Of a DNA stretch of 43,833 bases, positions 4,843-26,900 are shown piece by piece. The notes under the pieces are model-generated. The model was not told the origin of the DNA. It did not search any database and saw nothing but the letters and a program-made list of their open reading frames with translations. Every line of letters begins with the position of its first letter. The first letter of the stretch is position 1. Source of the DNA: Candidatus Omnitrophota bacterium (GTDB lineage Bacteria; Omnitrophota; Omnitrophia; Omnitrophales; Aquincolibacteriaceae); NCBI GenBank assembly GCA_016930235.1, contig JAFGHI010000030.1, forward strand, positions 1 to 43,833, in the 5' to 3' direction. The translations under genes were made by a program, and so were the position numbers.

Positions 4843-5481
4843 ATGGAAGTTTTTAAAACACATCGGGGGATTGTGGCAACACTCGACAGGGCCAATGTCG
4901 ATACGGATGCGATTATCCCTAAACAGTTTTTAAAGTCCATCAAGCGCACAGGATTCGGAGAGCATCTTTTCAGTGATTGGCGGTACCTCGAAGACGGCAA
5001 CCCCAATCCCGAATTTTCACTCAACCGCAAAGAATTCAAAGGCGCTTCGATTTTAGTCGTAAGAAATAATTTCGGATGCGGCTCAAGCCGCGAACATGCG
5101 GTTTGGGCGGTGCGTCAGTACGGATTCCGCGTTGTTGTTGCCCCCTGGAAGATGGAGGGCAAGACCCAAGTCCCGGCCTTTGCGGATATCTTTAAGAATA
5201 ATTGCGTCAAGAATTCTGTTTTAACGATTGAACTGGCCGAAGAAGAAGTCGAGATCATCTTTCAGCTCGTTTCAAAAAATCCCGGTGTCCAAGCGACCGT
5301 GAATTTGGAAAAGGAAAGGTTCTATCTGCATTATAACAAGGAAATGACCTTTGCCTTTGACGTGGACCCGTCTGTGAAGAGCCGTCTTCTCAGCGGATTG
5401 GATGATATTGGACTCACCCTGCAGAAAGAAAAAGAGATTTCGGATTTCGAAACCCGACACGACCCGCAAATCCAAAGATAA
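4843..5481 (+). CDS. leuD: 3-isopropylmalate dehydratase small subunit
   Basis: 'MEVFKTHRGIVATLDRANVDTDAIIPKQFLKSIKRTGFGEHLFSDWRY...NFGCGSSREHAVWAVRQYGFRVVVAP'. Start reassigned from the track's 4669 to ATG 4843, which follows aaaggag. Confidence 0.96.
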   Translation: MEVFKTHRGIVATLDRANVDTDAIIPKQFLKSIKRTGFGEHLFSDWRYLEDGNPNPEFSLNRKEFKGASILVVRNNFGCGSSREHAVWAVRQYGFRVVVAPWKMEGKTQVPAFADIFKNNCVKNSVLTIELAEEEVEIIFQLVSKNPGVQATVNLEKERFYLHYNKEMTFAFDVDPSVKSRLLSGLDDIGLTLQKEKEISDFETRHDPQIQR

Positions 5482-5847: not shown

Positions 5848-5955
5848 ATGCAAAAAGGCTTTAAAAAAGCGAAAGGCATATTTTCGTCGGTTACATGTCT
5901 ACTTTTTTTAATTACGAATCTATGCAACCCTTTACCCCCGAAGACAGCCTACGCT
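5848..5955 (+). other. Predicted N-terminal signal peptide of the giant ORF
   Basis: Basic start (KKAKG), hydrophobic core (SVTCLLFLITNLC), then AYA|ND as a plausible signal-peptidase site. Confidence 0.7.
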
Positions 5956-8900
5956 AACGACCAAGAAGCCTCATTCCTCACAGAACAACATCTGGGCGGT
6001 TTTGAGATACCGGCAGAGTGGGGCCGCGTGACAGAAATCATGAAGTCCGCCGAGACGGACTCTCTTATCCTTCATATCCAAACCTCTCACCGCCATTATG
6101 AAGCCCAAAAAAATATCCAGGCCATCCTTAAATATCTTTCTGAAAGATATGGGGTCCATCAACTCTTTTTGGAAGGAGGCTGGGACAAACTCGAGCCCGA
6201 GCTTCTGAGATTGACTCCTGAAGACGAAGAAACAAATCTCCGCATTACCGATGCCCTTTTGAAGGCGGGCGAAATTACCGGGGCCGAGGCCTTCCTGATC
6301 GATAACGAATCACCCGCTGATGGCTGGGGCATCGAAGATTATGAAGCCTATGCTGCCAATGGCGCTGTCTTTAAGGAAATCATACGGCAAGAACCGTTGA
6401 TTGAAAAAGGTCTCACGCAGGTTAAAGCGGCTTGGGAAAAAGAGGCCGCAAAATATTTTTCTAAACAGCTCCGGGATTTTATCCGCAGGGAAGAAGCCTT
6501 CCTGGCCAACCAAATCTCCATGAGTGATTGGTTGGATCACTTAACGCAGGAAGCCAGAACCTGTCTCCACCTGGATTTGGAAAATGTCTGGCATCAAGCA
6601 ACGTGGCCGATACTCGTACGTTACGCAAGACTTAAGAAAGTCGGAGAGTTATTCAACGAAGAAAAGATCCGGGAAGAATCGGAAGATTTTATTATAGCAT
6701 TACGGCGTCTTCAGATATCCGAGGAGATTGTCAAATCCATTCAAGAGACCTTAGGATCGGAACTGAATCAAGGAAATAGAGCTCAAGCCCGCGGAATCTT
6801 GAGATCCCGAACCCAAGACGGGGAAGAGATACCCGCTTCAGCGACACGTTTCCTCTTTGAACGGTTGTTTGATGTCCTGCCCGAAGACTTCTCAATGGAA
6901 TTATTCCCCAATCTCAAACTTTTCATTCAGCAGCTTGTCCTCATAAGCGAGCTTGAAGGCGAAAAACTGGAAGAGGAAACGCTGCGGCTCACATCCTGGA
7001 TCACCGAAGCGCTGGCTGACGGGGAAAGGGACAAGGAGCTCGTCCGGATGCTCGAGGCCATCAGGCATTTTGAGAAACTCTTTTCGCTTGAACTCACCCG
7101 CAAGGAATATCTCAACGCTTTTACGAGCCGCGGAGAGGATCCATTCAATCGTTTGTGGGAAGAAATTTTCAGCGGTCAGAAATTGAAGGCGAAAGACAAA
7201 GCATTGAAGGAAGGACTTCAAGCGCTTTACGCCAAGGCCGTCCAGTTTTATGAAGGGGCCGTCCGCCGCGAAAAATGGATGGCCGAAAATACGCTCTCTC
7301 ATCTCCGGCAGCTGGAGAATCGAAAAGCGGTTCTCATTACCGGCGGTTTTCACGCGGAGGGCCTTAAAGATGCGATCCTGAATCAAGGGGTTTCCTACGT
7401 CCAGATCACACCGCGCGTGACCGACATTCCCCAAAACACGCGGGAACTTTACCTTCAAATGGTTTTGGGCGAGTACCTGCCTTCTAATTCCAAATACGAG
7501 GCTGCCTTGAGATTACAAATGCAGGATTGGCCTGGGATGGAAAGCGATAGCTGGCCGGGCCCTTCTCAACAGAATGTCGCCCGGCATATGCTGGATATTG
7601 CAGGCCTTCAATTGAATGGCGATGCAGAGCTTGACCGGCAGTTAAAGACATCGCGTCTCGCTCAGCTGGCCGGATTACGCTCTGAACGGCGAACCGTTCG
7701 GTCTGAAGATTTGAATCCCCCGAATCGCTGGCAGGGTCATCGGTGGGATGATTGGGATGCAGATCACCTTGTCCAAACGGTCCAATCGGACACCGCCGGG
7801 AATTATGAAATTACGATTGATGAAGCCGAAGAAATTTTGCGACTTGTCCGGCAAATTCAAGGTCCTGAGCAGCCAAATCCACGCCTTGTAGTTGAAGCCT
7901 GGAAAAGCGGGCATGCCCTTACGATCGAAGAGGCAGTCGAGATGAGTCATTTCTCCAATCGGATGAATGGTACGGGTACCGTTGATTTGGATAAATGGCG
8001 GGATCAGATTGTCCAAAGAAGTAAAGACAAGAAGGGTAAAGTTAAACCGCTCAGCAGGGAAGAAGCTTTCCAAATCTTGAAGCAGATCGCGGAAATTCGT
8101 CTGATGAATGCCGATACGCGGCTTCTACCGATGCCGCTTCTGATCGATGCCTTTTTTGCTTTCGGTTCAGTGAAAAAGTTGAGGGAGATGCTCTTTGACG
8201 TGGCCTTTGACTACGTTCCGGAACCAACAGGGAAAACAGCTTCGCGCCGGGGCAGCAACCAAAAAGCTGCCGTGCAAATGAATTTGAGTGGTCTTATAGA
8301 AGCGGCCAAAGGGGAGAATCCGAAGGTGATAGATTGGGATTGGGGTTTTAAGGCCCTTGATCGGTATTATGAGCAGCATCGAATTCATGTGAGCGCGGCA
8401 AGACAGCGGAAAACAAAGTCTGAGCTGCGCTTGTCTCCAACCGAGACAAGCACTGCTCGGGACTCGATGCAACCGCCGAGTGGAACATCAAGTTCCACCG
8501 GCGTAGTACCTGCACACGAAGTACAGGTGGGGCCATCTCGCTCCGAGCCGCACCAATTTCCGACCGAAATTGGTACTGCTCAGTCCTTTGGGCCGACCGC
8601 CCAAAGGGCCGAGCTGCGGGAAGTAAGTTCCGCTTGGCTCCTGGCTGCCGCCTCGGTTTTCGTCATTGGTTTGGATATCTCCTGGCGGATACAGTTAAGG
8701 CGGAGGGTGACTCAAATTTGGGAAGGGCATGTTAAGCGGGAGCTTTCCGATCCGGATTATTTTAAAGGGCCGGGAGCCAATGAGATGTTTTTTGTCAACG
8801 AATCGCGTAAGTGGACGCGTAGACTCGTAAAGGCCATTTATTCCACGACACATGATTGGAAAGCATCTCTCGTTTCATTGGATGAATTGTTGTCGAGAAT

Positions 8901-11900
8901 CCCGCAGGTTTCGGTTTCGCTTATCCGCCGCAATCGCCGGAGCGGAAAGAATGAACATTGGTATATTACCGTTCCCGATTCGGTTGAGTTAAAGCGGTTA
9001 GCCGAAGATTCTTCAAGATTACGGTCAATCATCATTTCTCATTCCGAATTAAGGACGGAGGATGAATATTTTCGTCAATTGGTGGATGAACATCTCGAGG
9101 GGATCAGGGGTGTTTACGAGAAATTCGAAGAACGTCTTGATTCGATTGCCGGGCAACATGGCATTGACAAACTCGGATTGCGCTATGCGGTCTTGTTGGA
9201 TGTGATGAGATATAACACCCTTTTTTACGGGGATATTCTGGAAGGCCCGGGTTATTCCGGACTTTCCAGAGACGACCGTGCATTTCTTTTTGGGATCATT
9301 TTGACTATTTGGCAGATGGTTTATGATGAAATCCGGCAGTTATGGACGGAATTAAGCCGGGAATCGAATCCTTTTGAAAGATTGGCTCAGGTCCTTGACG
9401 AGACGGGGGAATTCCGCGCTGCGCTTCGGGTGAATCATCAAGAGGCGCTTAATTTAGTTATTCATGCGTTGGAAAATTCGGGTTTCGTTACCGGATCGGG
9501 AAAACAAACTGCCTCGGATTGGGTGGATTATATTATCGCCAGCGCCGCGAGATTTGAGGAAGGCCGCGTTGGGGATATGAATCAAACCCGGGAAAACATT
9601 CTTCTTCTTAAGGCCTTATTTGATGCCAAATTTCATTATTATCACCAGTTAAACAGGTATCGGGATAAAAGCATATCGAGGACAGGGGGCCGGGTTTCGA
9701 TAAGTGCGTTTGTGGAAGCGCTTCTGCGGCATGACGGGGAATTTCTGCGTGCAATAGATCGGGACGATCAGCCGCCCCGCTCCGAGCTGCGTACCTTAGG
9801 CTGGGAATGGGGATTGGCATTGGGTGCGGTTGTTTTGGGGGGTGTGTTTTATGCTTTGAATGTTTATTTGAAACGCGCTGAGTTTTTTGAACGAGTTGAA
9901 CAGATCTGGGTGGAATCCATCCGGGGAGTTTTGAAAGAATCTCATCATCCGGTCGAGCCGGGGCATGAGGATCAAATTCAGGATGATTCATGGGTCGACC
10001 GGCACGAATCCCGAAGGTTGTTGATGGAGCTTGCCGGGGTTTTAAGGAAGAAATTCCGCAATGATCCGAAGGCCATCGAAATCTTAAACAGGATTGCGCG
10101 GCAGATTTCAGATTACACAGAACCCATTGTGATGCGGGAAGGTGACAGGACGCCTCTTTACCATTTTAATCTTCCCGATCCCCGTCAACTGAAAATCATG
10201 CTCGAACAGCCGGCCAGACTCAATGAATGGATCCTGAACGCGAAAAGTAATTTTGCGCCCGACGAAATCGAGGCAACCCGATTCCAAAGGTCTGAGTTGC
10301 GCACAGGCGACATCGTTTTCCACGCTGAACCAAGTCCCTTATTGCCCGCTATCGAAAAATTTTATGGACAATTTCAGCAGACCATCGGGTGGATGCTCGA
10401 AGGACAGCTTTCGGGTGTTAAGGAACACCGGCTTGTTCGGGACATGTTAACCGACATGGCGCAATTTCATCAGAGCGAACGCAAGTGGCTTCGAGGCGGA
10501 GATTTCAAAAAACTCACATCCGAAGAAGAGGCCTTTCTCTTTTTCTCTTACCTGCTCCCTCTTTGGCGGATAATCCATCAAGAGTTGGAGCAAGTTTTCC
10601 TGGAATATGAGAAGGGTAAGCAGCCTGTCAGCGGGTTTTATGCGTATTTGACCCAAACACCGCGGGAGATCAGCGGGCGCATTTGGCAGCGGCATCGGGA
10701 ACCGTTTGGGAGGGCGGTGCAGTTAATCGGACAACATGCCGCAATCCGGTGGGCGGATGATCGGCGCCTCGGGGCTGATTTTATTGACCGTGTGATTGAC
10801 CGGCTCGTTCAATCTACGGCCGGGGTAGTTCAAAGTTTGGAACAAGAAAACAACCGATACGCCGCTATGGCGATTTTGAACTATCTTTTTAGGAGCAGGC
10901 AATTATTTTACAAGGAGTTTTCCGATTATGTCGCCGATTATGCGAAAAAGAACCTTCGGTCCCTTAGGCCCCGGCATGTAAATGAAAATCGTAATTTATT
11001 TTATCAAGCGCTCGAACAATACGAAGATACGCTCCTGCGATCAGAATTGCGGAAAGGCGTGCGCTCCAAGACGACGGTTCAAGGGGAACTGCGCGAGGTT
11101 GAAACGGCAATCAACGGAATTTCCCGCGCCTTGAGTGATCCGGAAGATGGACTTGATGAGGAAATTGCAAATCGGACTTTGACAGAACTCAACACACAAA
11201 AGGATCGTTTACTTGAAGAATTGCGGGATTTGGAATCCCGTTCCGAGCTCCGTCACGATCCGGTTTTGGAATGGCCGATGACCGATCCTAATCGAGATTT
11301 TAATCAAATGCTTACGGATTTTACTTTTTACGCTGCCAGGCAATATCACGATGGAAGCGCAAGATTAATGACGAGTCCTTCGATGATGGGTATCCAATAC
11401 AAGCGCGAGCAATCCTACGACAGCGTTTTAATTCGGCATAATCCGCAGGAGAATGAACTCGTTGTTGTCGGCAAAACGAGTCGCATTGATGAGCCCGATG
11501 CGGTTTTGAAATATGTACAAATCGTTTTTTCTGATGAGGATCTTCGTGTTTATCAGGGCCAGGCGGGTGAAGAGCATGGGGAAGTTGCTTCGGGTTCTTC
11601 AGAAGAGACCAGGATCATTGCGGAGCCTTTAAATGGTATTCGCTATCAAAGCGGTCGATTTGAACTGGTCGTAAGTCCACAGGCTTTTAGCTTCCTTAAA
11701 GCTCAAGAAGTGATGATAACCGGATTGACTTATGTGGAAAAGACGTCCGAAACGGAAATTCGCCCGCGCTCGGAACTTCATGAATCCATCTCGCCGGTAT
11801 TGGGATGGGGCGGAACCGTAAGTATCCTTTTAGGCGCCGGATTGTTTCTCGTGACGCTGGGAGGTTTGGCGGCAGTCTTCTTATTCCGGCGATGGAAGGC

Positions 11901-14900
11901 CAACGGACGGTATGACAATTATCCGGGTGTCAAATCCCATGTGCTGGCAGCCGTGAAAGCGGATCTTCGGGTTGATTTTTCTTCAGGGAAAAGGGAGATG
12001 ACCGAAGAGAAAATGGGCGGAGACGTTATTGACATTGATTATGATGACGAATTTTCAATCGACTGGGCCGCGTTACCGACGCCTCTTCTTCAAGATCTAT
12101 ATCGGCAGCTTGCTGAACAAAGGCGCCCTAAGATTGAGTTTGTATCGGGCGGGCCGCACGTGATTGTCAACCATGTTGAGCATCGCTTCTCGATGAATCG
12201 TGGCAAGAGGCTGCCGTCCCGCGTGATAGCGAAAAAGACTTTCGAGATCCGTTCTCCCCGTTCCGAGCTAAGGGCGGGATCTGTTTCACCCCGCGACTTT
12301 TTCGGTGAGGCGTTCGGTGATTGGGATAATCTTGTGCAAAGGATTCAAAGAAGTGAAATCACGTATGCTGCGATTAAACCCCTCGGACACTTCCCCGAAG
12401 AGGTGCAACTTGCGATCCGTTATCAAATTATCAGGACTTTTGTCCAGGCAGGATTTCTTGTCCATATTGGGAGACCGATTCGATTGACTCGCGAAGAAGC
12501 GGAAAAATTTTATACGGTTCATCAAGGAAAGCCTTTTTTTGATGCATTGGTTGATTATGTCTCAAGCGATGTCTATGTCCCGCTTCTTTTGGAGAAAAAG
12601 GATGGTCCTGAAATTATTGATCATGCCCGCGAAACGATTGTCGAAATCCGAAGAAAGGCACAGGCCTCTGAGTTAGTTCGAGGTGCTGAACTTATTCCAC
12701 AAGGTGTCGAGACGAGGGTTTACACGCAAAATCTTATTCACGGCAGCGATTCACCTGAGAATGCGATTTATGAGGTGGGTGTGATTTTGTCCACAGAAGG
12801 TGCGCGTTCGGAAATGCGGGGAATGACGGACCACGTGCAACGGACCACGGACCGTGAAAATTTACTCCTCACCCCAACCCTCTCCCCAGCGGGGAGAAGG
12901 CAGGGTGAGGGGGCGATCCACCTGGGTCATGGGTCTTGGGACCTGGGTCTTGAACGATCTGAGTCAAGAACGCCTTCCAGTGCACATTGGAGCTTGGCGG
13001 ATCCAGAATTTCCCCGTGGTGGTGTCATCCTGACCGATAACTATATCCGCTCCGATATGAAAACCTATTCCTTGCCGCATCACAGGAAGATTGCGGTTCT
13101 GGAAAGACAGGAAGGAGATCATCTGCCTTATGCAGGAAAATTTGTGACGGCGATCCAGCAAGCCGAGTTGGTAAACGAAGTTAATATCATCAGCCTTCAG
13201 ACATCCGGGAGTGTGCGGCAGACACTCGAAAACCTGCTGAGCGGATTCGAGCCTGATCTCGTTCTGGTACCGGTCTCCTCCGGCTGGCCGGAAAATGAAG
13301 TCGCTTCCTGGATTCATGATTATGTCCAGGTGCGCGGGAGCCCGCTTGAGGTGCTTCTTTATCCTGTTCCTCTTGAAAAGAATGATCAGTTTTTTTATAC
13401 GCCCATTTTAGAATATGACTTCGAAAAGATTATCCTGCCCGCAGTCAAAGTCCATCATACACAAAATCGAAGAACTCAATATGTGCCGGCCGTACGGCAT
13501 CTCCTGCGATTTTTGGCGGCCCGCGCCAATGCGGAACGCCGAGATGGGCCGTTGAGTACTCCCGTTGCCAATGCCTTTGCGGTGGAACTTATCCGTAAAG
13601 GGGAGGTCCAACGTGTCTTGTCTAATCGTAACCAAATGGCAGAACTGGACAAACTTGTTCCGCTTATTGTGATTTCGCCTCATCCGGATGATGATGTGAT
13701 CGCGGCCGGGGGATTGATCCGCAATATTTTAGCGACGACCGGCGTTGAGAACTGGGTTTTAGGAAGAGGGTATACCGGGGTAACGGGCGTCGGGGATTTG
13801 ACACCCGAAGAAATAGCCTGGGGGATGAGAGAACTGCAACAGATTTTCAAACCCGGCGGTGATTTCTACGACAAAACCGGTTTCGTTCCGGATCTTTACG
13901 GGCGAGTCTTAAAAGAAACGCCTGAGAGTCCAAGTCAGGAAGTGCGGTCGATTGTCGAGTACCAAGTGGATCTCCTGGGCCATTTGCCTGCTGTCCAGGT
14001 AAAAATTAACCAATGGGAACTAGGGGACAACGTCCAACCTGTTTTTGGGGAATTGGTTAAGCGGATTATTCGAAGGAAAGAGGTTGAAGAGGCTTCGCGG
14101 ATTTTATCGCGGGATTTGGAACGCCATGTATCGGTGAGATGGTTTGATCTTCATTCAGTGGCTTTTCCGCATGGTCTGGCTCCCCGGGTGCCCGATTGGA
14201 TGGTTCAGCAGGATGAAGTTGTTATTCTCGAAGAGTTCCAGCATTTTTTCAACGAACATCGTCAGCAAATTATGGCGTCCCAGACCCACGGGGTTCCCTG
14301 GAGTATTGTCGTTCCCCATCCCGAAGACCAGCATCCCCATCACAAGACGACGTCTCAAATCGTGATGACGGTGTTACAGGATTTATCCAGGCGCGAGGGG
14401 ATTGAGATTCAATTGATTGAATACCAGTCGCCCTGGGCCGGCGGGTTTGACACCTATTTTGTGACAGATACCGAGATCCCATCCGAAGCTGTTTCTCCTG
14501 ATTCCGGATTAGATCGTTCCGAAGAACTGTCGGCGATGGAGCAGTATCAACGGGCCTTAACCTTTCTTGTCGGAGAATTGGCGGGTCGGTCTTTTGGTTT
14601 GAGTTCACCGACGCCCGAACAATTAGGCGGCCGTTTTACGGAGAGTTTTAAACGACTGGTTTTTGAGCCGGTCCGCTCGGAGCTTCGTAATGATTTTCAA
14701 AAAAGAGCGGGTGATCTCCTTAACGCTTTGGAAGGATTTGACACAGCGGTTCAAACGGCTTTTAAGGCTGTCGCTAAAGATGTGCAGAAAATTGATGAAG
14801 AAGGTAGTCGCTTTCAAGTGACGCTGGGCGGTTTTCTTGGGTCTCTTGAGCGCGTCAAAGATTTGCTGCGGGCCGAAGATCTAGACCGGAAGGTGTTCCT

Positions 14901-17900
14901 AGATGCTCACGCGGCTTTGGAAAAAATTCAATCCGGGATGAAAGAGTTAATCGGAGGTTACAATCCCAAGAGGGCATCGCTCGGCGAAGTCCGGACTGCC
15001 GGCAATCAACTTGACGGAATTATTAAAGAACTTGCGGCATTTCTGGGGGTAACAAAGAAACCTGCTGCCAAAACCGTTCAACCGAAAACCGAACCGCCCA
15101 CTGAAAAAGTTGAAGGCACCGTGACGCCCCGTGAAAGTCATCGGCCGTCGATCGAGGTTAAAAAACATCAGGGGGTTGACGGTTTTGGTGCCGTATCAGC
15201 GCCGCCGGCTGAGTTTTTCGAACTTGCCAGCGGGCTCAAGCAAAGCGTTTTATCCGAGATGCTTTTGGATCCTGAGATCAATGCTATCGGGAAGGTAAAG
15301 GGCCCGGCTGCGGAGCTTGAAAAAGTAAAGGGCAGTATTATTTGGGTCGAATTGGGTTCCGAACCGGAGACGGTGGCCAAGCTTGTCATCAACGGTTTAA
15401 GGTCCGGTAAAGAAGATAAGTTACCGGTCAAGTATGGCTTTTTAATCGTTTCCTATCGCGCCGCTCCCGGATCGCCCGAAGCCAAGATGATCGTCCTTGT
15501 GCCTGAGACCGTTCCGGCAGAGAGCCCGCGGTCCGAACGGCGTGTGAAGGTTGAGGAATTGAATCGTCATTTGCGGGAACATAAAGCTCTCGACGGTATT
15601 GTTGTAGCATTACATCATTCCTATCGTGTTCGAGCGAAATGGGTTAACGCCCCGGCCGGCTCCAATGTCAAAGGTTACTATGTTTTTCTCTCACAACCTG
15701 CGGATTGGGATGAAGGCCTTGAAGAAAGGTCCGCACCGGTTCAAATGTATCTGGCCACAGAAGGAGAAATGCAGCAATATGAGTGGGAGATCCAACATCT
15801 TATGGACGAATCTTGGACGGCTCAGGAACGGAAAGGGGTTTATCTGCCGTCTGATTATTTTCTGTCCAGGAAGAAGAAAAAGAAAGTGGATCTAGCCTTA
15901 AAAAGCGAAGACGTTTTCAAGAAGGCGGCCAAAGCCATGGCGTTATTCACCAGCCACCACCAGATCGTGATGGATATCCGTGCCGCGGTTTTCTCTGAAC
16001 TCGGGGACTTCCAGTATGGTGCTGAAATTAAACCGTCTCAACAAAGCGATTTTGGTCCGCCCGCAAGTCAGGCACCTCAAAATATGATAAAGCTCCTTCA
16101 ATATGTGAAGGATCATCAATATGAAATTCTCGTTGGAGTGCAGGATATTGATCGATCAATGGGGCGGATACGATTGGTTCTAGGTGGTTCGGATGAAAAA
16201 ATCGGCAGTGTTGAAGAAGATGTAAAGACCGATTTGCCTGGATTGTCATTCCAAAAAGCAAAGGTGATTAAAGAATATCCTTCCGGGGGCAGACAGGTTC
16301 AACTTGGAAGAAAGGTGGTTATTCTTCGTGATTTTCATCAATTGAATGCGCTTTATCAAATTCTCGTCAAGCGTTTCCGTCCTGAATGGTGGAAGGGGGA
16401 TTATCTCGTGAGTGTGGCTGAAATCGAACGCGCCCTGGATCAGATGCAAGGGGCAAGGGGCAAGGGGCAAGGACGCTCCGAGCTTCGCGATGATAACCAA
16501 TATGTCGCCCGGGGAAACGGAACGATTCGTCTGGTACCGAGCGAGGGGAACAAAGCCGAGATTCATATCGTCCAGAATGATGTCAGGCAATTTACCTTTG
16601 AAATGATGTCCGGATCGGCGCAAACCGTGGTCGATAGCATTTTGTCCGGCATAGGATCTCAAGCGATTGAGGCCGTCTGGATTGGCAGTAGCGGCCACCT
16701 TATGGTTAGTGTCGGGGATTTTAACCGTTTTGTGGTTGATCCGGTTTTGGGGACGGTCGAGTTCAAACGGAACTATGTCTCAGCAGCTAGCGGTGTAATC
16801 GATCTCAAGGTGGAGCGGCGACATCTTGATCATCTAGCGGTTACCGTCAATGGGGGGCAATTTTTTACGCATACGGTTAAGAGCGCAGTAATCACTCTTA
16901 CGGCGATTGAATCCGTCAAAGGCGAAAGCGGTTATGACGCGGTCTGGCAGGATGCGAACGGTAATCTTATCATTCTATTAACGAATGGTTATCGGGTGCG
17001 GGTGGACGCAACAACCGACGAAGTTTCTGCTATGCCAGCAACAGGCTTGGACGAACTCCAGCCTTTAAAGGAAATGGGCCCTTCGCAAACAGGGACATCC
17101 GAATGGGAAGGCGAAGGAGAACAATTTCTGGTTACCTCCCGTCAGGGTGAGATTACCATTGAGACGACGGATTCGATTTTTACCGTTGCAGTTAATTTAA
17201 ACGGGAAATCAGAATTTGGCTGGGCGTTCGCGAAACCGGCTGCTCAGGTTGTGGATGAAATTAATGATGTCCGAGCTCAGTTTGGAAGTCCTATCGGATA
17301 TAAGGCTGTCTGGGGGGATAAGAGAAATCGTGATCTTGTCATTGAGCTCGATGACGGCCGGATGATCCGGGTGAAAGATCAATCGGGTGAGATATGGGTT
17401 CGCCGCGCAGATGCCGGCGAAGGGACCATTGTACTCGAGTCGACTGGAAATTACGGGGTAACTGTTCTTTTGGACGGTAACTATCGTGCTGAACTTGAAT
17501 ATCAACATGGTGCCAGAAGGTCTGCGGAAAGCCTTCGGGAACATCAGGGTACATCTCGGATTGCTTCTGTTTGGTCAAATCTGGATACAGGTGTCCATAT
17601 TTTTTACCTCGATGATGGAAGAATGCTGACAGCTGACAACCAAACCAGTGAAGTTACGGTCACTGGTGTCAAAACCGCTGGTGAAGCCCGACCGGCGGAT
17701 TCTGTTTTGTCCAAACTTCCTCCCGGTGCCGAGAAAGTCGTTGATAACGAAAACGGTTTTATCGTTTTAGAAGTCAGTAGATACGGTAATATCCTTGTTT
17801 ATGCGGGTAATCGAGATCGTGCCTACGAAATCCCAACCGCTAAAGATACCGGTCATGCATATCGGGAAGTCCACCGGCTTCAAAGAGGGGCAGACATTTC

Positions 17901-20900
17901 TTCCATCTGGAAGAATCCAGAAACATGGGACCATTTTATTGTTTTAAGTGATGGCCGGGTGATCCAAATGAATTATGCTACTCATGAAGTGACTTTTATG
18001 AGTGCTGATACTGCCCCGGGAAATTTGCCGGGCGCGACAAAGATTGCCGACTCAAACGATGGTGAGATCATGCTTTCCGCAGCGAGTACGGCGCTTGGAT
18101 TGTTAGTTAATGACGCAGTAAAAGAAACCTTCTTTATTGTTAATCCTCTGATTGTGGCACAAACATTTAATAGTTTACGCAGAGGCAGTTCGATCAAATC
18201 CGTTTGGGGTACAAGCGAGGAGCTTTTCTTTAATTTAGATGATAAAAGGGTGATTGTTATTGTCAGAGAAAACGGCAATATTTATGTCGAAGGTGAAGAA
18301 CCTGTTTCAAGTTCATCGACGGCAGTTAAAGAACATCCCAATGCCGACAAAGTAGCAGATTGGGGAAATGGCGTGATTGCATTAAGAAGGAATATCCTCG
18401 ATGAAATCATGGTTTATGAAGGCGATCGAAGAGTCTCCATCGTTCATATCCCCAGCAGTTCATCGGAACAAGTATGGAATCAAATCCGAAGGCTCAGGGC
18501 ATCCACGGAAATCGTCGCGGTCTGGCGGGAACAGACTTCGCTCGATTGCCTAATTGACTTAAGTGACGGAAGGACGATACGCATCGAGGACGAGACCGGT
18601 CGTATCGGTGTGGAAGGCGGAGATGCCACAACGCCTGCGCCGGCAGCCCTGGTCCCGCCGGCTTCTTCTTTTATCCCTCAGGAGGCCGTCTTGGTCGTGG
18701 ATTCAACGGAGGGAGGTATAGCCTTAGAAGTTACTTTAGACGGGGATATTGATATTTACATCGGTGGTCAGGTGGATAGAGACAGAAGGATTGATAATAC
18801 GACTTTAAGCAAGGCTAAAGAAATTATCGAGAAGTTAGGTGATCATACAATCACTGCGATTTGGTTAAAGAAAAGCGAGTCAAATTATTATTTGGATAAG
18901 GCCTATTATTTCGTTTTAGATAACGGACAAACGGTTGTTTTTAACGGTCGAACGGGTGAGGTATCGATCGAAGGTGTCGGAGCCGCTCCGGCTGGAGCTG
19001 ACGTGACAGCCAAAGAACACCCTGGATCAAGCAGGGTAGCGGATCAAAAAAATGGCGAGATTACAATCCGGTGGGATACAGATGATCAACTGGAAGTATT
19101 GGAGGGGAGAAGTCTCGCTCATACCATCTTTTTACACGATTTCGTAGCGGATCGAGTTCTGTCACAGATCCAGGGATTACAGGGCTCAAGCCGTGTCGTT
19201 GCCGTTTGGGAAGAAATTTCCACGCTGGACACTCTTATCGATCTAAGTGACGGAAGGACCCTCCGAATCAATGAGATTAATAGCCGAGTCACGGTTGAAG
19301 GAGAGCCGGTTGTCGCTTCGGCTGCTAGGGCAGGCAGTAGTCAATTAGCCGCGGCCAGTGCGGATGAGATGCTGGAAATGGAACAGGAGGCGATTGATGC
19401 TAAATCCAAAGCTGAGCCGGTTGCTTTTCAGGTTACTGTGGACGAAATACGGGAACGAGGAGTGGATGTTGTTCTTAGAGGCGAAGACCGTTCCGAAGTC
19501 AAAGGTTTTATTTTCGCGGATCAGTTAGATCAAGATCTCTCACGTTATTGGTGGGGCAATACCATTTCTCCCGTTTATCTCGTCTCTTATAAATATAGAA
19601 AACCCGAGCACCAAAGAAAATCTGCTCTATTTACGATGCGGTACGACCGTGCCTTGCGTGAGCGGCAATCAGGGACCCGTCAGCGGATGACTCGTCCCGA
19701 AGCACTGGAATATGTTCAAGACGCCTTTCAAAATGGTACGACGGTTGAGGCTGTTGTTCTAGGGGCATCCAGCAAGGGGACCGGCATCAATTTTATGATC
19801 GGCGGTGTTTTGAGGGCGTTTATGCGCGACCGATACGCTCGACCAAGATCCGGCGAGGTGAAAGAACTTCATGTTGTGAAAGTTGATGTTCAAAGCGGGG
19901 ACGATGTCTATGTCGAATTAGGTGAGACGGATCATCAATTGAGAAGAGGCAGGTCTGATTACCGGCGCTATATGCCCGAAGTGGATCAAGAAACGGCCAT
20001 GTCGGAATTAGAAGATGCTTTGCAGCGGGGAACAACGGTTTCAATCAGGGCAGGCCGTCCCAATGAGCGTAGAACAGGACTTAATGGTACGTACAGGGGA
20101 GCGGTTCATGTTTTCTATAGGGATGCACAAGCGGCGGCTGAGTGGTCCCGACAAACACCTGAGCAGGATATCGATGGTCTTTATGTTGTCCAAAAAGTAG
20201 AGAAAGGGCCAGACTCCTTTTATATCTTGCAGCGCAATCGGCCATCAGCTTCGGGTCCAAGATCTCAGCGCAGTATGGGAAGGTCAGGCAGCGGCGGGTT
20301 GTTCACTAGCAGTGGCCCGGCCGGCCTCTCACCGTATCGTAGAAAGGGTGGGCGGACTCCCAAAAAAAGCAAACGGCCCGGCCGCGGCGGATTGGATGGC
20401 GGCCGGCGACGTTCGGAGCTTCGTATCTGGAAAAATGGGGCGCTTGGGGAGGATCAATTAGAGATTTATTCCACGCGTGCTCACTGGGAAGGCGCCGAGA
20501 AGATGGCGGTTCCCCGCGAAATAATCCTTCACTCAGGCCGGGGTGAATTTGTTTTGCTTAACTTGAAGGCAGCGGGGCGGGCGGAAGATCAGCCAAGCCA
20601 CAATGTTTTAACCTATTCCATGGTTGCTGCCAACAGCTTGCCTTCGTTATGGGAAGAAGGTCTCCAAGTTGGCAATTTCAAGGTTGAAATTGATCAGGAA
20701 GGCCGTCCTGTCAGTCAGGGCATTCGGATTGAGATTTTTAGTGATGTCCAAGATCAATACGCGTACTTGGGAGAGTCTCTATCGCAATGGATCAATGCTG
20801 CAACGAATGGCGGCGAATTTCCTTTTACGCTTCAAAATTCCAGATTTGTCACGTTCTTGACCACCAACGTGCTGCCGACCATTAATCCTCTTGAGCAGCC

Positions 20901-23900
20901 AGATCAGGGGAATGATCTTGTAGTTGATCATGTCTCGTTAGTCAACTATGCCGATGATTTGGTTCGTAAACAAGCGGAAGCGGTTTTGGTCCACAGTGCG
21001 ACCGGCGGGTTTGGTGCTCGGGGAATGACACCTGCCTTGGCTCAATCGATTATCGAAAGCGAAACCCGGGCCATGAAGGAAGTTGGATTAACCGTTTATG
21101 CCAATGTTACACCCACGCGTTCTCGAGGGTACGAAGAAGATTATGAGAAAAATAAAGGTGAAGCCATTCAGGAAATGCTGCAGAATGCCGGGATTGCTGA
21201 AAATGCAGGCGCTGATGCGCTTGTTTTGGCGCCTCTTACCTTCTTAAGGTCCAGCGAAGAGATCACGGAAGTTGTCAATCTTTTGGTTGAAGCCACAGAT
21301 CTTCCTGTTGTTTTCTACGATAATCCGGGTCTTCACTTGATCCCGGGTCGGGATATCGACGCAGCTGTTGTCGAAAGTTTGTGGCGGTCCGGTCAAATCG
21401 CGGCGATTAAGGTTAGTACAGACCAATTTGAGATTGTGGAGGGGTATCTCCGGACAGGCATTCGTGTTTATATCGGGAATGAAGGTCTGATTGCCCGTGC
21501 CATGGAAAAGGGCGCCATTGGTTCTGTGGGTTCGACTGGAAATATTCTTTCCCTTCTGCAGGATTTACCCGTCACGAGAAATCTCGATAATCTTCAGTAT
21601 TTGCAACGTATCGTGGATGACCTTCGGGGACCGTTGACGGTGGATCAAACAAAGATTACGGCAGCTATCCTTTATGTTTTAGCGAAAGAAGGAATTGTTC
21701 AGAATGTCCTTCTTCCGGGCGTCCCAACGCTTGAAGATACGGAAAAACAAGCTATTGACGAAGCCCTTGTCAAAGTCAATCGATTGGAGGCTGGAAAGAA
21801 CGCAGGTATTGCTCAAGCGGCGCTTGAAAAAAAGGTTGTCGACCGTTTCATAGAAGATCCATTAGGTTATGTGAAATGGTTAAGAGATGAGGCTGATGAT
21901 GCGACTTTGACTCTTGCGATCAATCACATTGAAGGGGTGCTGACAGTTGAAGGGAATCGCAGGATTTTGGAAAAGCGGGGTGTTTTAGAGGAGATCGAAA
22001 CGGTCCTCGATGAAATTTTTGCCGCCCATGAATGGCCGGAGGAGGCTTTTCAAGTCGGGGAAGGGGTTGTAGACGCTGCTCAAGCGGATTTGCAAAGAGC
22101 CCGGCAGATATTGGTCGAACAAGTTGTTCGAAAGTTGTCTGACGACCGCCATGCCGAAATGCTGAACCGGTTTTATGAGGAAGGTGTTTGGAGGTCTCTT
22201 TTGGCAAATGTCGCTGAAGCGATGGCGGCGGTTCCCCGTCATCTGTATGCCTCTCGCTTTAACGGAGCTAATGCGTACGAAAATGACATCGTCTATATCG
22301 GACGCAGACAGACGATTTCCCAGCCGTCGTTAATAGCGATGATCCTTTTGTTCCTTCATTTGAAGGGTGATGAAAAGGTTCTAGAGGTCGGCGGCGGATC
22401 GGGATGGCTGGCATCTCTTTTGGGGCAGTTGACGGAAGAGGTTTATTCGACGGAAATTATTGAGCTGCTTCGCAAGCGCGCCGAGCGGACGGTTCAAAAA
22501 ATGGGAATTCAAAATGTCCATATACTTCAAGCCCGGCCGGACGTGCTCGGTTATCCGGATGCAGGACCTTATGATGTGATTGTCGTTTCAGCGGGGAGTT
22601 CTCGCGCGACGGTCCCTGACGAGCTTGCCAATCAGCTCGCTGAGGGCGGGAAATTGCTGATTCCGTTATTGGATGAAGATGCACAGGCCTTGAGGGAACG
22701 CGAGAATGCAAAAAGACTTTATTCGCTTAAAGTTTTTGTCAAAAGAAATGGTGTGTTGGTGGATATTTTTGATATGAAAGCAATGGGGTATCCTGTTTCC
22801 TTTGTGCCGCTTATCTTGCCCGAGCGCGCAGAGTTACGCGCGATCAACATCAAGTCAGAGACTTCGAAATCTGCCAATCAGTTAGTGATTGAAGTTGGTG
22901 GCAAGAAAAAAAGTGGGCGTCATATGAGAACAGTTCCTCGCTCATTTACTTTCCCGGTTTGGAGGGATGCCGCTCAACTTGTGAATGAAATTGAGGCGAT
23001 TGCTGCCACGGGAAACCGGCATTATACGGGCGTTATTATTAATTCCGAGCGTGGGCATCTTGTAACGCAATTATCGGAAGAGGCAACAACCCTTGGTACT
23101 AAAGGCTGGCATAAGGACGGCATTTTTAGTGATCTTGAGAGCGGAGATCTTGTGATTCAGTTATCCGATGGGGCATCGATCCTTGTTTCGGGTATGGATA
23201 ACTATGCTATGGAGATTCCACCCGCCGGTATGACGCGGGAAATAAAAATGAGACGAAGGGTCAAGTTGAATGGATTGGTCCCCAGCATTCTGTCGGTCAG
23301 TGCCGAGGGTGTGGTTCAAGGGAACCTGCTTGTTGAGCGCTCTTCGTCCGAAATCATTCGTGAAATCGAAGGCCTGATAGGCGAGCAGTTTTGGACGGGT
23401 GAGCGGTTTTTTGTATCGGCGGAGGTTTCGCCTCAAGAAGATGTTTTAGAATTGGTTTTGAATGACGGCCAGAAGGTGGTGGTAACGGAAGATGGTAAGC
23501 GTGTCACGATCGAAGAAGGCGGGCGTATTGCCGACCCGTTTTTGCTTCGGTCCGTCGTCCGGCTTGTCGAAGAGTGGGAAGATTACGGACAGGTTCAGAT
23601 CAATGCCAGTGTCTTGGCGGCGGAGATGGGGATCAGTTCGGATCTTACGGTGACGGACCGGGATGTTGTTCGTGCGATTCATCTTTATAATCAAAGTGGT
23701 TCCGAATACGTTTTGGTTGATTTACCCACCGAAATAGGAAGTACCTTCCAAATCTTACCGCGTTCGGAATATGAAAAGGTGGTTCCTCCCGAAGACCGCT
23801 CAGAACTGCGGTCAGTAACGGACCACGCAGAACGAACCATGGACCACGGGAATTTATCCCTCACCCCGACCCTCTCCCCGGCGGGGAGAGCCCGCCTGCC

Positions 23901-26900
23901 AGCAGTCGGGCAGGGTGAGGGGGCGAGTGACGTGGTTCGTGGTCCTTGGTCCGTGGTCCAAGCTCGCTCCGAGCTTCGCAGGAGTGGGCATCACTATGAG
24001 ACTATTCAAGGCAATATCTGGGTGAATCGGGAAATGAGTGAATTTCCGGATAAGCCCGAATTGAGTGAATTTGTGATTAGTAACGGACCTGAAATTAACT
24101 ATGCCAATGTTGACGCAAATTTCCGCGTTCGTGTTCTATATTGGGATTATCAACGCGCAATTGTTCAAGTGAAAGTCCCGGGAGGCGAGTGGTCCGAGGA
24201 GATCCAATTGTATATGCAGACGGGCCGGCATGCGATTTCAGGGACAATTCTCATGGAACTTCGCGGCTTCGGGAAATTCGAGAGGCCCGAATTCGGCTTT
24301 TATGTGCCCGGGGAGTCAAGGGTTTTGAGGCGGAGAGAATTTGACCGCGGAGTTCAGCGGCGCTCTGAGCTGCGTGATGATTTTGTGCCGTATGTAAATG
24401 AGGGACAATATACGCCTAACCTTAAAGGGTGGTTAAAATTAGGGGTGGATGGAAAAGAGGGTGGACTTTACGAATTTAGCGAGTTCGTCATATCGGTGGA
24501 GGGTGAGCTCGCTGATTTCGATGATCTTGACCGGAATATCCGGATCCAAGTAACTGATTTTTCAAAGGCGGAAAAATGGGTGGAGTTCCTATGGAAATAT
24601 CCGGGCCGGGGTTGGTCGCAGCCCGTAAAAATACGGATGGAATCGGATGAATTTCATATCACGCGGAATGCGATCATAAGATTTAGCAGTTTTGATCGGG
24701 AAGGTTTTCCGGGTTTTGCTTTTCGTGATATCAAGCGAAAACATGAAATCTTAAGGCGCCGGGCCTATGAGGAGATTAAAACAGGATTAGTTGTCAGCTA
24801 TCCCGGCGAAGAGATTGATCTCAAACATCCGGAAAATAATTTGCATTTAGAGATTGCGGATGCAGATGCAGACCAAGGAAGAGCTATGATCAAGTACCAC
24901 TCCCGAGGAGCGAACAGATGGACACGACCCCGAGATCTCAAGACAGATGCGATTATCAAAATCGACGGTTTGATTTCTGTGACCTATCGCGGTTTGGATA
25001 AAGAGGGAAAACCCCAATTTGAGTTTGAGCCCGACAATGTCAAAGTGATGCCCGGTCTGGAATACCGCCAGATCAGACAATCCGCCTACCGGCGCTCGCC
25101 ATCAAAAAGTGAGCTACGGATCGAGATCCCTGAAATCGTGGAAGTCATCAAAGACCTAATTAAAGAAACAGATGGAGAAAGGCAGATTCGTATTACGAAT
25201 GGGATTGTGGCGAACAGGCTTAATATCTCAGAGTCGGCGGTTACCACTTTGATGTTAGAAAAGGCCATCGGGCAATTCAATGAGTCAGATGGCACGCATT
25301 TTCTGGAGCCGATTCGCACGGAGATTGGGCATACGTATCTCGTCGAAACCCGTTCTGAATTGCGGGGCGAGTGGTTTAATTTGTCCGTTGATCTTCGAAA
25401 TGGCCGGGCTCTTGAAAATTATAGTGAATTGGTCATTTCCACAACAGGGAGAGTTGATGTGACGGATGTCGATCGGAATATCCGCGTTGAGGTGGTTGAA
25501 AGCGATTGGCAGCGGGAATGGGTGACCATTCGCGTCAAATTACCGGGCGGTGAATGGTCTGAAGCGATTACTTTATTTCGAGGCGATACTTATCCGTTAA
25601 CGAAGAGTGTGGATATTCAGCTTTTTACCTTTAACGGAAGTCGCGAACCTCGCCTGGGAGTTACGAGATTACCTCATGTTGGAGTCCTTCGCCGGCGGCT
25701 TTTTAACCGTGATCATAGAAGATGGCTTGAGCAGCAACCGGCGGTAAGAATAAGAGCCGAATTGCGCTTGTCTCCAACCGAGACAAACACTGCTCGGGCC
25801 TCGGCGCAATCGCCGGGTGGAACATCAAGTTCCACCGGCGTAGTACCTGCACACGAAGTGCAGGTAACGATGCCTCGCTCCGAGCTGCGGAGCAGAAACT
25901 GGGTTAATCTTCCCCTTGATGTTGAAAAAGGAAACCCCGAAATGGGCGAATTTGTGCTGAGTATGCCGGTGCTGGATATGCCCGGCAGCACGATGGATTA
26001 TTCCCGCGTTGACAATAATATTAGGTTACAGATCACGGCCTTTTCGATGAAAGGAGCCTGGATTGAATTCAGGTATAAACTGCCCGGGCGTCATGCAAAA
26101 TGGTCAAAGAACTATCGATTGCAGATGGGAGATGGACTTTATCCGATCACCGAAAGTGTTGAGTTTGAGTTGGGCTCGTTTACGGAGGAGGGTATCCCGG
26201 TCATTGGTTTTTTTGCTCCTCGCAGCGTTCGAATTTTCACAAGGCAAAATTATGACACATCCAATCGGCAGAAAACCGTCTGGTTTACTTTACGGGCGGA
26301 TACATGGGCCGGTAATCTTACGGAGGATCTAAGCGGATTTGTCATCAATAAAGAAGGAGAGGTTGACCAAACCGATATCAATAATAATGTCCGGGTCCAG
26401 GTCATTGACAAGGATGTTAAAAAGCAAACGGTCACGATTACGGTTGCTTATCCGGGAGAACAGAAAATCCGGACGGTTTTGCTTCGAAGGCACGAAGAAT
26501 ATCCGGTTTTCCTAAACTTTTCTATCCGGTTCCATTACTTTGACGATGACGGCACGCCTTATTTCGATTTTACTAAAGACACGGGTTATAAAGTTCTTCG
26601 CAGAAGCGTTTATGGAAGGGGTCCTGTTGTGCAGCATTCTGAATTGCGGGAAAAACGTGTCGCACTTCAGGGGGCACAGGGAATGCCTGAATTAGTCGAA
26701 TCATTTTTGCCGGAAGATGCGCAGAATGCGGTGTATGGTTACCGTGAAATTGGACGGGTAGGGGAGACAGGTATTTTTGCCTTTGCTGTCAAGGTGATGG
26801 ATGGCATCCTGCCTTTATCGTTACACGGGCTGGCGGCTGCCGGTCCGTTCTTTACAGAACTTCTAAGTTTGAATGGGTTGGCCATGGCGGCTCCGGGCCA

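Follow-up and report, generated by a model that had tools for sequence, protein, structure and literature searches.

The giant open reading frame

The stretch of DNA analysed here (the window) comprises positions 1 to 43,833 of contig JAFGHI010000030.1, from a draft genome of a Candidatus Omnitrophota bacterium (GCA_016930235.1; 2.3 Mb, 63 contigs, 90% complete). The SufB encoded in the window is 75% identical to SufB of Omnitrophica bacterium RIFCSPHIGHO2_02_FULL_51_18, a name that is given to one class in the available text of a phylum survey (PMC10066038). The window holds a 21.5 kb open reading frame (5848..27399; all window coordinates given here are on the + strand) encoding 7,183 amino acids without an internal stop. 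Its N-terminus (5848..5955; MQKGFKKAKGIFSSVTCLLFLITNLCNPLPPKTAYA), judged by eye from the sequence, resembles a signal peptide and suggests export; similar N-termini are also found on the giant proteins of relatives. A head domain with invariant H, EG and GGFH motifs follows (5968..7560; the first ~500 residues), and is common to many giants, with matches in all 39 related genomes (from 1 to 56 per genome, many in large open frames) and 22 matches in the window's own genome. The window copy scores 16.6 bits against the ChaN/Tiki family PF04187, below the cut-off of 27.7, and matches in 6 of 20 members are likewise weak and sub-cut-off (best E 0.0076); the resemblance is no more than a lead in the search for a protease. 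At the other end, the stretch that follows the last [RH]SELR (26650..27396; ~250 residues) forms a tail domain shared with other giants, with matches in 11 of 39 related genomes.

Apart from the NDK segment described below, the only Pfam models exceeding their cut-offs in the giant are those of a PIG-L deacetylase (14065..14373, E 1.2e-10), a DHDPS/DapA-like module (21163..21708), also present between RSELR motifs in giant G012:C3, and a PCMT (protein-L-isoaspartate methyltransferase) module (22150..22704, E 2.3e-37). Hydrophobic segments at giant residues 1323-1341 and 1993-2011 lie between the signal-like N-terminus and the NDK segment, and with at least two such segments intervening, the NDK could face either side of the membrane.

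Giant ORFs of more than 20 kb are described as common and poorly understood in the Omnitrophota (PMC10066038, available text). The window frame resembles these in length, signal-like N-terminus, scattered hydrophobic segments and phylum. It differs in that the giants described there have few annotated domains, and neither a punctuation motif nor embedded metabolic enzymes are mentioned in that text.

An NDK module with a conserved active site

A preliminary description, made from the letters of the DNA, had noted a nucleoside diphosphate kinase (NDK)-like domain bracketed by two related pentapeptides. RSELR (12259..12273) and RSEMR (12805..12819) are indeed present at the claimed positions, ahead of and behind the module and both in frame 1 of the giant ORF, as are the quoted strings IKP, LTREEAEKFY..HQGKPFF and NLIHGSDSPEN. 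An HMM search matched the segment to the NDK family (PF00334, E 2.8e-20, 73 bits against a cut-off of 27), the sole Pfam family found there, covering residues 35-178 of the segment that runs from RSELR to RSEMR (12361..12792). The same description had equated the 177 amino acids between the motifs with one NDK-like domain; the distance is correct, but the NDK profile spans only 144 amino acids, starting 29 past RSELR and ending 4 short of RSEMR. The ~29-residue N-terminal extension that separates motif from core is a departure from the NDK family, and its final portion (..I..G.VTFA.IKPD) is seen again in NDKs of other giants. The observation of a bracketed NDK domain, lying inside a giant protein and retaining its active-site His context, is confirmed. 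The interpretation given in the preliminary description is supported in part, export of the giant being suggested by its signal-like N-terminus.

Other comparisons agree as to family. Only NDK models of NCBIfam matched the segment, every one under its equivalog cut-off, and solved NDK structures matched it in sequence down to E 3e-15. The best profile matches among solved structures were NDK7/FAP67-type domains, which are similarly housed within larger proteins; NME7/FAP67, however, are eukaryotic axonemal proteins with two NDK domains and lack R[SA]E.R punctuation. A single-sequence structure model of the segment (pLDDT 52.6) was too poor to use, making its Foldseek matches meaningless, and an initial scan for related loci with the NDK segment as query gave no matches. 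The window module is the only NDK found in its own genome (90% complete).

Nine active-site positions were compared, in human NDK numbering: the equivalents of K12, Y52 and F60 (codons 12376, 12511 and 12535), R88, R105 and N115 (12628, 12649 and 12730), and H118, S120 and E129 (12739, 12745 and 12772). The window module retains the phosphate- and base-binding K12, Y52, F60, R88, R105, N115 and E129 equivalents, and its NLIHGSDSP fits NxxH[GA]SD[GSA]x, the catalytic-His signature of the family, with the putative phospho-acceptor His at giant residue 2298 (12739..12741). Among 13 NDKs of giant or large ORFs, all nine positions are kept in at least 12, and only 14 of 126 well-filled columns are conserved to that extent, the nine included (Fisher P 1.2e-10). 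Two departures occur, Q for H118 in genome G038 and N for F60 in G375; because Gln replaces the catalytic His in G038, some copies cannot work via phospho-His. We take the conservation to mean that most copies, that of the window included, have been selected for phosphoryl transfer, and the window module is most likely catalytically competent, as judged from these residues.

In other respects the module departs from the family whose profile, active-site residues and signature it shares: it is part of a giant protein, belongs to a fast-diverging separate lineage, and has a deleted loop. The GxTNPxxAxxxT stretch, which holds Thr94 at the start of the Kpn loop, is absent from the window module and from four NDK modules of related genomes, and the Thr94 loop is gone in the seven NDKs nearest to that of the window. 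Its loss characterises the giant- and large-ORF NDKs of this order, that of the window among them. In stand-alone NDKs the Kpn loop contributes to hexamer assembly. A form of the window type probably does not build hexamers as the stand-alone enzymes do, and loss of the loop suggests that it would act either alone, as a monomer, or inside the giant.

The R[SA]E.R boundary motif

The bracketing pentapeptides are examples of a motif that pervades the giants. In twelve giant-ORF pieces of the window's own genome (48,441 amino acids), RSE.R is present 117 times where 1.5 would be expected, and RSELR is the commonest pentapeptide, with 80 copies in 63 DNA spellings that include AGR and CGN arginine and TCN and AGC serine codons. 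On this codon diversity a DNA-repeat origin of RSELR is rejected, and the R[SA]E.R pentapeptides around the NDK are maintained at the protein level. Residues flanking the RSELR copies show no conservation. The DNA pattern CGCTCNGARYTNMG has 73 matches genome-wide, compared to 0 for a reversed control, and RSExR is found in none of the other listed ORFs of the window. The fourth residue differs by genome, being V in G016 and G012 and A in G038.

Placement of the motif is equally distinctive. In the giants R[SA]E.[RH] is found at 0.0031 copies per residue, yet 0 copies fall within Pfam domains where 11.2 are expected (Poisson P 1.3e-5). Of 12 hydrophobic-segment groups in own-genome giants, defined by eye, 9 have their start 7-22 residues downstream of a motif (binomial P 2e-8). 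Domains the size of whole proteins lie between motifs, including a formyltransferase (N and C domains), an acyltransferase with GNSLG, and a receiver domain; the formyltransferase and acyltransferase of giant C33 are complete between tags, with catalytic motifs kept. Bracketing by R[SA]E.R is a rule, the motif being a module-boundary code throughout the genome and the order, and the bracketing of the window NDK is not chance, because the motif avoids Pfam domains, is frequent in giants and brackets homologous NDKs elsewhere.

The acyltransferase, of malonyl-transacylase type, occupies residues 3138-3460 of the RSELR-punctuated giant G000:C33 (L017), keeps its GxSxG, and is the only such acyltransferase found in the genome (90% complete). 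A stand-alone formyltransferase is present on contig C43, which rules out that modules simply replace cytosolic genes. At the ends of giants L002 and L017, tandem 20-residue repeats (RSEQRQVARKPAVQNQQDSS) carry the motif in series, as RSEQR.

Some sequence between tags is derived from DNA repeats. Directly behind the NDK module, a linker between RSEMR and RSESR (12820..12954, closed by RSESR at 12955..12969) is a translated dispersed palindromic repeat; the same repeat (LTPTLSPAGR.QGEGA) is translated at 23812-23964, after RSELR, and both linkers end in RSExR. This repeat has 21 matches in the genome, other contigs included. A second in-frame repeat of 126 nt, with copies 88% identical at 8426-8551 and 25763-25888, comes after KSELR and RAELR and encodes LSPTET.TAR...GVVPAHEVQV.

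NDK modules in other genomes

In relatives, NDK modules are located between tags in giant frames of 5,182 amino acids (G018, residues 4625-4780), 11,110 (G016, 4867-5022), 8,198 (G012, 707-983) and 10,566 (G038, 1447-1726). All four have R[SA]E.R 2-60 residues ahead, and in G018 and G016 the next motif is within about one residue of the module's end. Because the modules occupy different positions in their giants, among unrelated neighbouring modules, the NDK has been shuffled as a unit. In G038, which has one stand-alone NDK and one in a giant ORF, the closing RSEAR of the NDK is directly followed by a receiver domain bracketed on both sides by RSEAR (contig C44, L034).

In a 384-genome sample, NDKs embedded in giant or large frames also turn up in further families of the phylum, the frames reaching 42,913 amino acids. 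The longest of these, from another family, holds an NDK module with a full NKVHGSDS motif (L191, G091:C2:419044-419493). R[SA]E.R was not found within the flanks examined around giant-ORF NDKs of other Omnitrophota classes, so the tag is dispensable for the existence of such modules. In a tree with 18 stand-alone Omnitrophota NDKs, the 13 NDKs of giant or large ORFs are split off on one branch with support of 100/100, many end branches being long and the order inside the 13 unsure. By this tree the window NDK groups with its giant- and large-ORF counterparts, which have diverged fast except at the active site; capture of a stand-alone NDK from living relatives is ruled out by the separate lineage. 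The boundary code, the phylum-wide recurrence of NDKs in giants and the missing Thr94/Kpn loop are new beyond the preliminary description.

Interpretation

On these findings the segment is a complete NDK-family enzyme module in a modular giant, and an extension of this to nucleotide binding, tag cleavage and action at the membrane is a reading that we judge to be evenly balanced between right and wrong. The giant would be translated, with its signal peptide, as one chain; a protease would recognise R[SA]E.R and split the chain into separate proteins in the manner of a polyprotein; and the NDK module would handle nucleotides at or beyond the inner membrane, perhaps those of a partner or prey cell. 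The parts of this scheme are not equally secure. That the window NDK can bind nucleotide and phosphorylate His 2298 is probable. Location of the chain at or beyond the inner membrane, perhaps acting on partner or prey nucleotides, could go either way, and it is plausible, at slightly less than even confidence, that the tags are protease recognition sites.

Cleavage is suggested because the modules resemble whole proteins and the membrane modules open with a hydrophobic segment right after a tag. Protein-level selection, inter-domain position, free flanks and hydrophobic segments after tags would all four be explained by a cutting site, and the first three by a docking or hinge peptide. Most likely cleavage sites are marked by the tags, which perhaps are themselves the sites. 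A protease was not found, and Pfam peptidase matches are absent from the scanned giants. The substrates of NDK, formyltransferase and acyltransferase are cytosolic, which is a poor fit with export; precedent for an NDK acting outside a bacterium exists in secreted NDKs such as that of Porphyromonas gingivalis (PMC5121656), which differs in being stand-alone and leaderless.

The main competitor, to which we give a considerable minority of our confidence, is that the tags are not cut at all, and that the giant remains whole as a surface or envelope scaffold, with R[SA]E.R serving as a flexible joint or as a docking peptide for a partner and the NDK as one decoration among many. Interpretation of Omnitrophota giants as coats or adhesins in the available text of PMC10066038, the failure to find a protease, and the existence of tandem repeats with RSEQR are in its favour, whereas the specificity of a tag without conserved flanks, its exclusion from domains and the hydrophobic segments that follow it suit cutting at least equally well. 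A second proposal, rather unlikely, makes the module a structural or nucleotide-sensing pseudo-kinase comparable to the NDK domains of NME7/FAP67 in larger assemblies. The NDK7/FAP67-type profile matches, the lost T94 loop and the H to Q change in G038 would agree with this, but the nine active-site residues are each retained by 12 or more of the 13 strongly diverged modules, and joint retention of K12, Y52, R88, R105, N115, H118 and E129 would be unexpected under neutral or purely structural use. It is very improbable, given the many spellings of RSELR, that R[SA]E.R serves no purpose in the protein and is only a trace left in the DNA by a mobile or recombining element, even though dispersed palindromic repeats adjoin some tags. 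An assembly or annotation artefact, conceivable in a draft of 63 contigs, is practically negligible in view of 7,183 codons without a stop and of head-domain giant frames, homologous modules and tags in other genomes.

Among known systems, the proposed tag-cut giant would work like the MARTX toxins (PMC6315884), large secreted proteins with exchangeable domains and processing sites between them. The window cargo differs in resembling metabolic enzymes, with no indication of host delivery or harm, and membership in the MARTX group is ruled out by the absence, across the whole window giant, of Pfam matches to repeats-in-toxin regions or a cysteine protease domain. A still more far-reaching scheme, doubtful at present, is that Omnitrophota of this order export dozens of enzymes and membrane proteins as one chain, cut at R[SA]E.R with the fourth residue depending on the protease, and release the NDK in active form.

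Significance

The giants resemble strings of ready-made enzymes and may be polyproteins. The NDK module provides a test case, being a small enzyme that is simple to assay and has a defined active-site residue. Should the tags prove to be cleavage sites, the giants would amount to a bacterial polyprotein system encoded in the chromosome, of which a literature phrase search returned no record; if they are left uncut, they would still be a domain punctuation that is absent from descriptions of Omnitrophota giants in the available text of the phylum survey. With the boundary code, the content of the giants becomes readable module by module, as whole recognisable enzymes.
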